Shown here one piece after another: positions 41,794-46,064 of a DNA stretch of 64,000 nucleotides (position 1 is the first letter of the stretch; every line of letters starts with the position of its first letter). The stretch spans positions 62,001-126,000 of the forward strand of contig NZ_JAPSLH010000005.1 in the NCBI RefSeq assembly GCF_031180965.1, read 5' to 3'. Source of the stretch: Chelativorans sp. (GTDB lineage: Bacteria; Pseudomonadota; Alphaproteobacteria; Rhizobiales; Rhizobiaceae). A model generated the notes under the pieces. The model did no database searches. It had not been told where the DNA came from and saw only the letters and a list, made by a program, of their open reading frames with translations. Both the position numbers and the translations under genes were made by a program.

Positions 41794-42549
41794 ATGACTA
41801 GGCCGGCCTCTTCCCGTCTTCGCCTCGACCAGCTTCTGGTGGTGCGCGGCTTTTTTGAGAGCCGTGCACGCGCCCGCGATGCCGTACTGCGTGGTACGGT
41901 TCGCGTGGCGGGGGAAGCGGCGGAAAAGCCGGGCCAGGTCGTGGATGCCGACGCCGTTCTCTCCGTGGAGGACCCGGCCCGCCGCTACGTTTCGCGCGCG
42001 GCGCTGAAGCTCGTCCACGGGCTGGAGGCGTTCGGCCTCGACCCTAGCGGGGCCGAGGCGCTCGATATCGGCGCGTCCACCGGCGGCTTCACGCAGGTAC
42101 TTTTGGAGCGCGGGGCTGCTCACGTGACCGCCGTCGATGTCGGAACCGGCCAGATGGATGCCCGCCTGCGCGACGACCCTCGCGTCACATGCCTCGAGGG
42201 CATCAACGCGCGGCACCTTACCGTCGACACGACTGGTGGCCGCCGGCCGGATTTCGTCGTCTGCGATGTGAGCTTCATCTCGCTGAAACTCGCATTGCCG
42301 CCGGCGCTCGAAATGGCGCAGCCGGGCGCCAGCGGGCTGTTTCTCGTCAAACCGCAATTCGAGGCGGGACGCGAGGCGATCGGCAAGGGCGGGCTTCTGC
42401 GCGAGCCGGAGAGGGGCGAGGAGATCGCCCGCGAAATTGCCGGATGGCTGGAGACCAGCAAGGGTTGGCGCGCCATCGGCCTCGTTCCTTCTCCGATCGA
42501 GGGCGGTGACGGCAACCGCGAGTTCCTGCTGGCGGGGCGGAAGGAATGA
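41794..42549 (+). CDS. tlyA: TlyA family rRNA 2'-O-methyltransferase
   Basis: 251 residues. An N-terminal S4 RNA-binding domain (SRLRLDQLLVVRGFFESRAR, residues 6-25, to about 68) precedes an FtsJ-type methyltransferase domain with motif I ALDIGASTGGFTQVLLERGA (about 89-108) and the K-D-K-E-like residues around VDVGTGQMDARLRDDPRV. TlyA proteins methylate 16S and/or 23S rRNA ribose and can influence capreomycin sensitivity; only the fold is seen here. The stop overlaps the start of the next methyltransferase gene by 4 bases (ATGA). Confidence 0.93.
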   Translation: MTRPASSRLRLDQLLVVRGFFESRARARDAVLRGTVRVAGEAAEKPGQVVDADAVLSVEDPARRYVSRAALKLVHGLEAFGLDPSGAEALDIGASTGGFTQVLLERGAAHVTAVDVGTGQMDARLRDDPRVTCLEGINARHLTVDTTGGRRPDFVVCDVSFISLKLALPPALEMAQPGASGLFLVKPQFEAGREAIGKGGLLREPERGEEIAREIAGWLETSKGWRAIGLVPSPIEGGDGNREFLLAGRKE

Positions 42550-43790
42550 GCACCCGCCTCGCCATCGATGAACTGGGCGCGCAGGGCGACGGCATCGCGC
42601 ACACGCCGGCCGGTCCCGTCTATGTGCCCTTTGCACTGCCGGGCGAGGTGGTTTTGGCGCAGGTGGAAAAGGGGCGCGGCCGGCTCCTGGCAGTCGAAAA
42701 GCCCTCGAGCCTGCGGGTGGAGCCGGCAAGCCGCCATTTCGGCATATGCGGCGGCTGCGCGGTCCAGCATCTTGCGCCCGATCCCTATGCCGAGTGGAAG
42801 CGGGAGAAGGTGGTGCGCGCATTGGGCAGCCGCGGCCTCGATGCGGCGGTCGAGCCGCTGATACGCTGCCCTCCCGGATCGCGCCGGCGCGTCACGCTCT
42901 CGGCGCGGGCGGCGGACGGGCGCACGCTGCTCGGCTTCCACGCGGCGCAGTCGCACCGGATCATCAACATCGAGGAGTGCCCGGTGGCGGTGCCGCAGAT
43001 CACCGCCGCACTTTCCGATCTGCGGCAGCTGGCGGGTCTCATCGCGACCGGCCCGAAAACCTTCCGGATGACCGTTACCGCGACGCGCACGGGCCTCGAC
43101 ATCGCCGCGGAGGACCTGGGCAGACTGGACGAGGGGAGACGGCGGCAGGCCATCGACTTCGTGCTCGCCAAGGGCTTTGCGCGGCTTTCCATCGGCGGCG
43201 AGGTGCTGGTCGAACGGGAGAAGCCGGTGGTGCTGTTCGGCAGCACGCCTGTCTCGCTGCCACCCGGCAGTTTCCTGCAGGCGACGGAGCAGGCGGAAGA
43301 GGCGATGGCCGGGCTGGTCTGCAGGCATCTTGCGGGCGCCAAGCATGCGGCCGATCTCTTCGCCGGCAGCGGCACGTTCGCCCTGCACCTTGCGCGCGCA
43401 TCGCGCGTTCACGCGGTAGAGGGGGATGCGGCTGCCCTGAAGGCGCTGGACGAGGCGGCGAAAAGAGCGGGGGGCCTCAAGCCGATCAGCGTGGAAAAGC
43501 GCGACCTATTCAACCGCCCGCTGACTGCCAAGGAGCTTGGCCGGTTCGACGGCCTGGTCTTCGACCCGCCGCGCGCGGGCGCCGAGGCGCAGTGCCGCCA
43601 GATCGCCCGCTCCACGGTGCGGCGGGTGGCGGCGGTCTCCTGCAATCCCGGCACGCTCGCGCGCGACCTGGCCGTCCTCGTGGAGGGCGGCTACGGCATC
43701 GTGAGCGTCACGCCGGTCGACCAGTTCCTCTGGTCTCCGCACGTTGAGGTGGTGGCGCTGCTGGAGCGCGTCAAGAGCGGCCGCCCCTGA
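42546..43790 (+). CDS. TrmA/RlmD-type uracil-C5 RNA methyltransferase
   Basis: 414 residues. An N-terminal TRAM-like region (about 1-55) is followed by an iron-sulfur motif that normally has four cysteines. CGGC is present in HFGICGGCAVQHL and the fourth in IEECPVAVPQI, but the first, expected just before HFG, is replaced (VEPASRHFG). The methyltransferase core has ADLFAGSGTFALHLA and FDPPRAGAE, and the catalytic nucleophile is in AAVSCNPGTLARDL. It would methylate a uridine in 23S rRNA or tRNA. The last 124 bases lie in a rearranged region, so the C-terminus (RVKSGRP) is probably not the ancestral one. Confidence 0.88.
   Translation: MSTRLAIDELGAQGDGIAHTPAGPVYVPFALPGEVVLAQVEKGRGRLLAVEKPSSLRVEPASRHFGICGGCAVQHLAPDPYAEWKREKVVRALGSRGLDAAVEPLIRCPPGSRRRVTLSARAADGRTLLGFHAAQSHRIINIEECPVAVPQITAALSDLRQLAGLIATGPKTFRMTVTATRTGLDIAAEDLGRLDEGRRRQAIDFVLAKGFARLSIGGEVLVEREKPVVLFGSTPVSLPPGSFLQATEQAEEAMAGLVCRHLAGAKHAADLFAGSGTFALHLARASRVHAVEGDAAALKALDEAAKRAGGLKPISVEKRDLFNRPLTAKELGRFDGLVFDPPRAGAEAQCRQIARSTVRRVAAVSCNPGTLARDLAVLVEGGYGIVSVTPVDQFLWSPHVEVVALLERVKSGRP
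43667..43770 (+). repeat. 104-base direct repeat, copy 1 (in the methyltransferase gene)
   Basis: The segment starting CCTGGCCGTCCTCGTGGAGG and ending CTGCTGGAGCGCG recurs at 44453-44556 with a single mismatch (43676 C versus 44462 G). Copy 1 is the coding 3' end of the RNA methyltransferase gene. Confidence 0.95.
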
Positions 43791-43811
43791 CGGGCGTTCG
43801 GCGCCGGCCTT

Positions 43812-44098
43812 TCAGAATGGCAGGCCGGAGCGGCTGATATGGTGTTTCTGGACGGCTCCATCGTCGACTGGACGCCGGTCTTGGGTGGGTTGGAGATTTT
43901 CCGCCAGGCGTCAAGCACGGCTTCCGACTCCCACAGCTCGAACATGTTGATGCGTGAGGGGTCGACGGGGTCCTCGCTGATCGAGAGGTCAAGGCAGCCG
44001 GGATAGGCGCGGGCTCGCCGGATGAGGTCTGCATGAGCCTCGACGAAGGCTTTGCGTAGGTCGGGTGCCATCTTGAGATGTCCTGCAACAATCAGCAT
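43812..44098 (-). pseudogene. Antibiotic biosynthesis monooxygenase (ABM)-type gene, frameshifted
   Basis: From ATG 44098 the frame gives MLIVAGHLKMAPDLRKAFVE and a normal ABM/quinol monooxygenase-like domain (ARAYPGCLDLSISEDPVDPS, MFELWESEAVLDAW). It should end near 43812, but the frame is shifted at about 43850-43858. Reading with one extra base there restores VQKHHISRSGLPF and a TGA at 43812-43814, the usual C-terminus of this family. Without it the frame runs on to 43691 into the opposite-strand methyltransferase gene. So this is a gene with a one-base deletion near its end, or a sequencing error. The activity is unknown; ABM proteins are cofactor-free monooxygenases or quinol oxidants. 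Confidence 0.7.
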
Positions 44099-44391
44099 AG
44101 CGAATTCTCCATCCTGGATGGGCCGTGCGGCGGTTCCCGCAGGCTTCCTGCCTAGGACGGTGAAGAGCGGCCCGATCCGACAATGGGTGGAGATTTGTTG
44201 CGCGCACCGCGACGCCCCCGCCCCAATTGAAGCCCAGAACGGGATGAGGAAAAGCATGAAGCGGATTTCCCCCCGGATTCCGCTCCGACTAATTGAATCC
44301 GACTGCGGAATTTTCGCAGGTCGATTCGACCCCATGTCGTCGCGATCGGGCTGTTGGGTTTCAAGCGGACTTCACGCGCGTCAAACCTCCC
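44099..44391. other. Region between the ABM gene and the tldD fragment
   Basis: No convincing gene. It should carry the promoter of the ABM gene. An inverted repeat ATTCCGC (about 44278-44284) / GCGGAAT (about 44306-44312) flanks an A+T-rich core (CTAATTGAATC), and the base composition is lower in G+C than in the flanks. Confidence 0.5.
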
Positions 44392-44461
44392 TGCCGCCGA
44401 CCGTCATTTGGGCCGTGCGCAGATGCGGCTGGCCGACACTGACGGGTCACAACCTGGCCGT
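44392..44461 (-). pseudogene. Diverged fragment of the tldD 3' end
   Basis: About 70 bases match the 3' end of tldD at 44660-44728, starting TGCCGCCGACCGTCAT and containing TGCGCAGATGCGGCTG, with roughly a dozen differences. It is a scrap of tldD lacking everything upstream. It is joined at CCTGGCCGT directly to the second copy of the methyltransferase repeat. Confidence 0.8.
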
Positions 44462-44575
44462 GCTCGTGGAGGGCGGCTACGGCATCGTGAGCGTCACGCC
44501 GGTCGACCAGTTCCTCTGGTCTCCGCACGTTGAGGTGGTGGCGCTGCTGGAGCGCGGGAGGAAGCGGGACTGAAA
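44453..44575 (+). pseudogene. Second copy of the RNA methyltransferase 3' end
   Basis: Bases 44453-44556 repeat 43667-43770 with one mismatch; the frame then continues GRKRD to a TGA ending at 44573. It encodes the last about 40 residues of the methyltransferase only and cannot be translated as a gene. It may be the original end of the gene before the rearrangement. Confidence 0.9.
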
Positions 44576-44648
44576 TTGGTCTAGTTGTCTAGACCTCTGT
44601 TCTACCGCGTCTCATGCGGTCACCCATGAGCGGCCCGCGTCGGCGGTA

Positions 44649-46064
44649 TCACGCCTGGGTGCCGCCGACCGTCATCTGGTCCATGCGCAGATGCGGCTGC
44701 CCGACGCCAACGGGCACGCCCTGGCCGTTCTTGCCGCACATGCCGATTCCCGTGTCGAGCTTCATGTCGTTGCCGAGCATCGAGACGCGCTTCATGGCGT
44801 CCGGCCCGTTGCCGATCAAGGTGGCCCCGCGGATCGGCCGCGTCACTTTGCCGTCCTCGATCATATAGGCTTCCGTGCAGTCGAACACGAATTTCCCTGA
44901 GGTGATGTCCACCTGGCCGCCGCCGAAGGAAACGGCGTAGATGCCCTTCTTGACCGAGGCGATGATCTCTTCGGGCGTCTTGTCGCCGCCGAGCATATAG
45001 GTGTTCGTCATGCGCGGCATCGGTGCATGCGCGTAGGATTCGCGCCGCCCGTTGCCCGTCGGATTCATGCCCATGAGCCGGGCATTGAGCCGGTCCTGCA
45101 TGTAGCCGACGAGCTTGCCGTCCTCGATGAGGACGGTGCGGTCGGTTGGGGTACCCTCGTCATCGAAGGTCAGCGATCCGCGCCGCTCGGCCATCGTGCC
45201 GTCGTCTACCACGGTCACGCCCCTGGCGGCGACCATTTCGCCAAGGAGACCGGCGAAGGCCGACGTCTTCTTGCGGTTGAAGTCGCCTTCAAGCCCGTGG
45301 CCGACGGCCTCGTGCAGCATCACGCCCGGCCAGCCGCTGGCAAGCACGATGTCGAAGGTGCCGGCCGGGGCGGGCGCGGCCTCCAGATTGACCAGCGCCT
45401 GGCGCAGGGCCTCGCCCGCCGCGAAGCGCCACGAGTCCTCGGCCACGAACTCGCTGAAGCTCTTGCGCCCGCCCATGCCGTAACTGCCGGTCTCCTGCCG
45501 GTCGCCGTCGCCCACGACGACGGAGATGTTCATGCGCACCAGCGGACGGATGTCGCGCGCAAGATGGCCGTCGGCGCGCAGGATCTCCACATGCTGCCAG
45601 GACGCGGCAAGCGAGGCGGTCACCTGGCGCACGCGCGGGTCCCTGGCGCGCAGCCAGCCGTCGATCTCCTGAAGGAGCTTTGCCTTCTCCTCAAAGCCCG
45701 GCGCGGCGATCGGATTGTCCTCCCCATAGAGCCGCTGGTTGGTGCCGGAGGGCGCCGCCGCGAGCGTGCCCGAATAACCGTCCTTCACGGTCGACACGGC
45801 CTCGGCCGCGCGCTTCAGCGCCGCTTCGGAAAGTTCGCTCGAATGGGCATAGCCCGTGGCTTCGCCGGCCACCGCGCGCAGCCCGAAGCCCTGGTCGGTG
45901 TTGAAGCTTGCCGTCTTCAGCCGGCCATTGTCGAAGACCAGCGCCTCGCCCTCGCGGTATTCGAGGAAGAGCTCGCCGTCATCGGCGCCGGAGACGGTCT
46001 CGTTGACGAGGGTCTTCAGTTTTTCCGGCGAGCAGTCGAAGGCGTCGATGAGGGAGCGGGGCAT
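44649..46064 (-). CDS. tldD: Metalloprotease TldD
   Basis: 471 residues. TldD works with TldE (PmbA) as a zinc protease that processes or degrades unfolded peptides and modified peptide antibiotics. The zinc motif HEAVGHGLEGD (about 250-260) is intact, with later conserved MLGGDKTPEEIIASVKKGIY and IRGATLIGNGPDAMKRVSML at the C-terminus. The partner gene is not in this window. The C-terminal coding end is intact here even though a diverged scrap of it lies 190 bases away. Confidence 0.96.
   Translation of the reverse strand: MPRSLIDAFDCSPEKLKTLVNETVSGADDGELFLEYREGEALVFDNGRLKTASFNTDQGFGLRAVAGEATGYAHSSELSEAALKRAAEAVSTVKDGYSGTLAAAPSGTNQRLYGEDNPIAAPGFEEKAKLLQEIDGWLRARDPRVRQVTASLAASWQHVEILRADGHLARDIRPLVRMNISVVVGDGDRQETGSYGMGGRKSFSEFVAEDSWRFAAGEALRQALVNLEAAPAPAGTFDIVLASGWPGVMLHEAVGHGLEGDFNRKKTSAFAGLLGEMVAARGVTVVDDGTMAERRGSLTFDDEGTPTDRTVLIEDGKLVGYMQDRLNARLMGMNPTGNGRRESYAHAPMPRMTNTYMLGGDKTPEEIIASVKKGIYAVSFGGGQVDITSGKFVFDCTEAYMIEDGKVTRPIRGATLIGNGPDAMKRVSMLGNDMKLDTGIGMCGKNGQGVPVGVGQPHLRMDQMTVGGTQA

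Follow-up and report, generated by a model that had tools for sequence, protein, structure and literature searches.

A Duplicated Methyltransferase Gene End beside an Apparently Decayed tldD Fragment in Chelativorans sp., a Probable Scar of Ordinary Recombination

INTRODUCTION

Short variable segments that are not mobile are thought to arise largely from illegitimate recombination, according to the relevant part of one comparative study (Genome Biol 2010, PMC2884548). In the portion of an Escherichia coli conjugation study that bears on such events, homology-facilitated illegitimate recombination (HFIR) was sought, 14 clones were sequenced, and single-crossover integrants with partial target duplications of 109 to 950 bp were described (PMC3240628). 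Elsewhere, variable gene arrays with displacement scars have been putatively attributed to HFIR (Sci Rep 2017, PMC5361080). For merodiploids made by transformation, the account given is that donor DNA pairs alternatively across sister chromosomes and that a duplication results (PLoS Genet 2013, PMC3784515).

Here, a locus with a small partial duplication was analyzed in Chelativorans sp. (NCBI RefSeq assembly GCF_031180965.1). The window, meaning the whole stretch of DNA under analysis, spans 64,000 nucleotides (contig NZ_JAPSLH010000005.1, positions 62,001 to 126,000). The locus probably records two or more ordinary recombination events, of the illegitimate kind and possibly assisted by homology, in the variable spacer that separates two convergent housekeeping genes.

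RESULTS

Anatomy of the locus. Domain and repeat analyses gave the gene order methyltransferase (MT), antibiotic-biosynthesis-monooxygenase (ABM), tldD scrap, second MT end, and tldD, in agreement with a preliminary description of the window. The full-length MT (42546 to 43790, plus strand) is an RNA m5U methyltransferase-like gene with TRAM and tRNA_U5-meth_tr domains. On the minus strand, tldD (44649 to 46064) has an intact open reading frame (ORF) for a PmbA/TldD family metallopeptidase with three PmbA_TldD domains. Positions 43666 to 43770 within the full-length MT recur as a direct repeat at 44452 to 44556, with the copies 786 bases apart; 104 of the 105 bases are identical, the sole mismatch being C at 43676 versus G at 44462. 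The near-perfect repeat reported earlier was therefore recovered and proved marginally longer. The mismatch base at 44462 was considered as a trace of tldD and dropped, since it is absent from the seven tldD ends printed.

The likeness to MT stops at 43770, where the inserted segment begins (43771 to 44451). It comprises an odd MT tail, an ABM pseudogene, spacer, and the tldD scrap, and its right limit can be placed only between approximately 44447 and 44463. Among the loci compared, clear matches of the insert were confined to the ABM gene (43812 to 44098, minus strand; PF03992), a short interspersed repeat (54 bases; 44236 to 44289), and the scrap (44381 to 44461, minus strand), a decayed tldD 3' end of about 22 codons. 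The GC content was 62% for the insert (43771 to 44380), 66% for the window, and 71% for MT.

In the 64-kb window, the MT-end and tldD-end pairs were the only direct-repeat families detected (length of at least 50, seed of 16); beyond approximately 41 to 48 kb, the window was scanned for repeats and tRNA genes only. No inverted repeats of at least 20 bases bounded the insert and no transposase domain was present among the five ORFs scanned, which speaks against transposon insertion. The window held no tRNA genes, and tRNA-linked integration was ruled out on this ground.

The joints. The scrap stops at the 9-base word CCTGGCCGT, which sits on the plus strand at the scrap/MT joint (44453 to 44461) and is found both in MT (43667 to 43675) and in tldD (44720 to 44728). 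Of the 67,600 possible joins of the MT and tldD ends, 31 would share at least 9 bases. The word at the junction had been noted before, and its presence in both parent genes was verified by position; the 9 shared bases also support the suggestion that the tldD end was joined to the MT end on the right by microhomology. On the left, the MT ends are near-identical up to 43770 and the tail beyond is unlike those of relatives. A crossover there would leave no mark, and homologous recombination at the left joint is possible. Simple tandem duplication, which the preliminary description had already set aside, was rejected because of the unequal identities of the two repeats (104/105 for the MT end versus 54/66 for the tldD end) and the single ABM match in the genome.

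Two MT ends and their tails. In the nine genus relatives compared (of 15), 66 to 79 of 90 bases match the MT 3' end. The last codons of the full-length MT, VKSGRP and a stop, were absent from 80 MT-centred loci and from 17 further tails, which came from a set of 19 loci in which the search motif missed L124 and L130. The second MT 3' end (44452 to 44573, plus strand) closes with the native-type tail GRKRD and a stop, which resembles the relatives' tails GKQRG, GKERG, and PGKRG. In three loci (L112, L118, and L123), the match to the second MT end continues through the tail to 44574. Given this native-type tail and the match to a cobB end beyond it (see below), it is the second MT end, not the tail of the full-length gene, that seems to keep its native surroundings. 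The two MT ends probably derive from near-identical genomes; gene conversion could be an alternative reason for their likeness.

The spacer in relatives. In the genus, MT and tldD are convergent, and the spacer that separates them varies. In 90 loci from the genus and wider relatives, its length ranged from 8 to 4544 bases with a median of 1366. These are the loci with both genes out of 99, with at least eight genomes counted twice and with doubtful tldD ends in L083 and L101; of the nine dropped, one was L121 (from genome G010) and the others came from the set of 80 MT-centred loci. Read by eye, the spacer of G010 has some tens of bases only. The spacer genes, among those listed, included Sir2 (cobB), NUDIX, an Xre/MbcA-RES pair, a DDE transposase, and a chromate transporter. 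The arrangement of the present locus was met in no relative that was examined.

A cobB gene was present in 9 of the 16 genus genomes, each time inside the MT-tldD stretch, and three of the nine matches hold an internal TAG; cobB was not found in this genome. Positions 44575 to 44602 (minus strand) match G012 at 96% over 28 bases, which correspond to the last codons of cobB and bases beyond. G012 was the only one of 15 relatives with this match, and its stretch lies approximately 80 bases after MT. Judging from these 28 bases, the segment is likely a remnant of a lost cobB 3' end, a reading weakened by the match to a single relative and by the greater distance from MT there. Within this putative remnant, positions 44578 to 44595 form an inverted repeat, GGTCTAG-TTGT-CTAGACC, which resembles the operators of GntR-type regulators and, with one mismatch allowed, is single-copy in the genome.

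Comparable scars occur in 3 of the 16 genus genomes, this one included. The spacers of the other two, G004 and G005, hold a tldD 3' copy of 138 to 145 bases that is 80 to 84% identical to their own tldD. Clear tldD scraps were limited to these two in the set of 90 loci, and the matches in seven more were short or weak. The two fragments (L115, 1341 to 1478; L116, 1420 to 1564) lie between a NUDIX gene and the Xre/MbcA-RES toxin-antitoxin-like pair. G004 and G005 look alike here and may record a single event. A common origin with the scrap in the window was rejected, because the latter is no closer to the G004 and G005 scraps (approximately 75%) than to their working tldD genes (76%).

The short interspersed repeat at 44236 to 44289 is 81 to 87% alike in G001, G005, and G013. 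Beyond the family, it was also seen in G053, which belongs to the same order. With up to three mismatches allowed, its 28-base core has a single occurrence here, and 10 of 151 family genomes, counting the present one, show any match. Since the core is rare in other genomes too, the repeat says little on origin, and an argument for foreign origin based on it was discarded.

Apparent decay of the tldD scrap. Between the scrap (44381 to 44446) and the tldD of the window (44649 to 44714), 12 of 66 ungapped bases differ, so the diverged tldD 3' copy described earlier is real. Past 44446, the match seems, on a reading by eye, to need a one-base gap. The scrap translates as PVSVGQPHLRTAQMTVGGREV and the tldD end as PVGVGQPHLRMDQMTVGGTQA, each followed by a stop. 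Two of the changes, M to T and G to S, fall on residues that are constant in 89/89 tldD rows, and a third, D to A, falls on a position that is N or D in the 89 rows and never A. The T position of the tldD end is T in 88/89 rows. These rows represent 88 loci and the window, with some genomes present twice and with L083 and L101 excluded because they have no clear tldD end.

With changes at constant residues and an apparent one-base gap, the scrap looks decayed. The changes point to loss of constraint rather than to a difference between two working alleles, and the earlier view, in which the scrap differs because a related strain supplied it as a working allele, was not supported. The scrap is short (66 to 81 bases) and the changes that speak for decay are few; a donor allele with an unusual course of evolution could be an alternative. 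The difference between the scrap (12/66) and the MT end (1/104) gave a Fisher P value of approximately 5e-5, with divergence inherited by the scrap included in its count. Decay after the MT duplication should have altered the spare MT end too, and this end differs at 1 of 105 bases; thus, the inserted material was probably already decaying before MT was duplicated.

The best score of the scrap, 48/56, was a tie between the tldD of the window and five other loci (three of Mesorhizobium, one of Nitratireductor, and one of an unclassified Hyphomicrobiales). Descent from a recognizable other species was rejected, as this tie indicates no donor.

The ABM gene and the search for a donor. The ABM proteins of the closest relatives end in forms like VQKHHISRSGPPF and a stop. 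The matching end here, VQKHHISRSGLPF with its stop at 43812 to 43814, lies in another frame, the shift falling after approximately codon 78, and the gene is regarded as frameshifted for this reason. As it stands, the frame extends into MT in antisense to 43691. Apart from the frameshift, which could be a sequencing error, the frame is clean and fits only light decay.

ABM has one match in this genome, which is among 92 with a match out of 394 searched in the family. The best genus copies are on contigs apart from tldD (contig 26 versus 21 in G008; contigs 4 and 15 versus 9 in G007). A search for ABM within up to 5 kb on each side of MT was negative in all 80 loci centred on that gene, as it was in all 19 MT-tldD stretches from genus and family genomes, for which the window served as positive control. 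A relative with the order MT-ABM-tldD, as predicted in the preliminary description, did not appear among these loci, and the donor is accordingly untraced. No genome with an ABM-bearing allele of this locus was found; hence, the donor and the order of events are inferred. Among plasmid records, 19 matched parts of the region, mostly in the tldD part; only one, from Phyllobacterium, has ABM, at 71.6%, and plasmid origin was rejected.

DISCUSSION

Proposed course of events. We propose that the locus arose in at least two steps. In an earlier step, in this or a close population, ABM would have been placed beside a cut-off tldD 3' end, and both would then have decayed. In a separate loss, cobB would have gone from the spacer save for its last few bases. 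In a recent step, the segment of ABM and tldD scrap would have joined the MT end of a near-identical genome. Its right joint would have formed at the microhomology CCTGGCCGT, and its left joint either by crossing over where the MT ends are identical or through another illegitimate join, placed at 43770. The overlap left over would be the 105-base MT end. Possible routes include a circle closed at CCTGGCCGT followed by one crossover in the MT end, and a donor strand that paired with sister chromosomes; integration of a circle, pairing across sister chromosomes, and template switching would all give the same structure. A single event could suffice if the donor segment had been decayed beforehand.

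Other explanations. The account given in the preliminary description, a single transfer from a diverged strain that carried the MT end, ABM, and a working tldD and that entered through homologous recombination in MT at its left joint and through microhomology at its right joint, is considered unlikely. It would explain the microhomology joint, the GC content of the insert, which is below that of its flanks, and the 48/56 match of the scrap to its own tldD and to five other loci, which is about a between-species distance. However, a donor that differed by approximately 18% in tldD should differ in MT too. The nine genus relatives compared differ there at 11 to 24 of 90 bases, against a single difference in 105 between the two MT ends here. 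The transfer would also have to deliver a tldD altered at residues constant in 89/89 rows, from a type of locus that was met in 0/80 MT-centred loci and 0/19 MT-tldD stretches. Also unlikely is template switching during replication, in which synthesis would leave MT at 43770, copy ABM and the scrap, and re-enter at the microhomology, so that approximately 95 to 105 bases were copied again. This account dispenses with a homologous crossover and with a separate donor MT. It fits the near-identical repeat, the return point at 9 shared bases, and the sharp break in homology at 43770, beyond which lies a tail that no compared relative shows. On the other hand, the segment to be copied was found nowhere else in the genome (one ABM match, one match of the region), and microhomology at the left joint can be assessed only with the source sequence in hand. 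One narrow literature search, in which every term was required, returned no paper on template switching with flanking repeats.

Very little probability is given to an assembly error that merged two strain variants. The genome is a 64-contig draft, the junction is known from the assembly alone, and a 105-base repeat is about the length of a short read, all of which would favor such an error. Against this, the joint lies deep within contig C52 (62001-126000 for the window, with a further match at 169237), the two copies differ by one base and carry different tails, and comparable scars exist in G004 and G005. The preferred reading is the stepwise recombination scar set out above. A broader proposal, considered improbable, is that the MT-tldD spacer is a long-lived, integrase-free exchange point, where small genes come and go by recombination in the conserved flanking genes and datable 3'-end scraps of the latter stay behind; three of the 16 genus genomes would then bear such a mark.

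Comparison with known systems. The locus offers a small case that can be read: gene gain and loss without mobile elements may use the homology of conserved neighbors and a few shared bases. Decay and strain divergence can be separated by asking whether changes strike residues that never vary. The locus is read here as an ordinary recombination scar, for which the preliminary description was correct in its observation and only partly so in its inference on the donor.

In the E. coli conjugation study, as far as its account of the integrants goes, homology joins foreign DNA on one side with little or none on the other; the same may hold here, with a duplication of 105 bp and a single genome from which to infer the event. 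The HFIR predicted in that study removes some of the target, whereas 105 target bases were duplicated here, and for this reason the event was not classed as HFIR; the locus has a joint of little homology (9 shared bases), with neither a target deletion nor an identifiable donor. As in the variable gene arrays described in PMC5361080, old genes remain beside new insertions, but scraps and a frameshifted gene are found here in place of effector/immunity genes. The part of PMC2884548 on variable segments compares several strains of a species, whereas one genome of the species is available here. The merodiploid duplications of PMC3784515, at the sizes given for them, span approximately 100 to 900 kb, compared with 105 bases at this locus. 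In general, by analogy with the clones described in PMC3240628, the locus appears nearer to the single-crossover duplications than to the deletion expected of HFIR.
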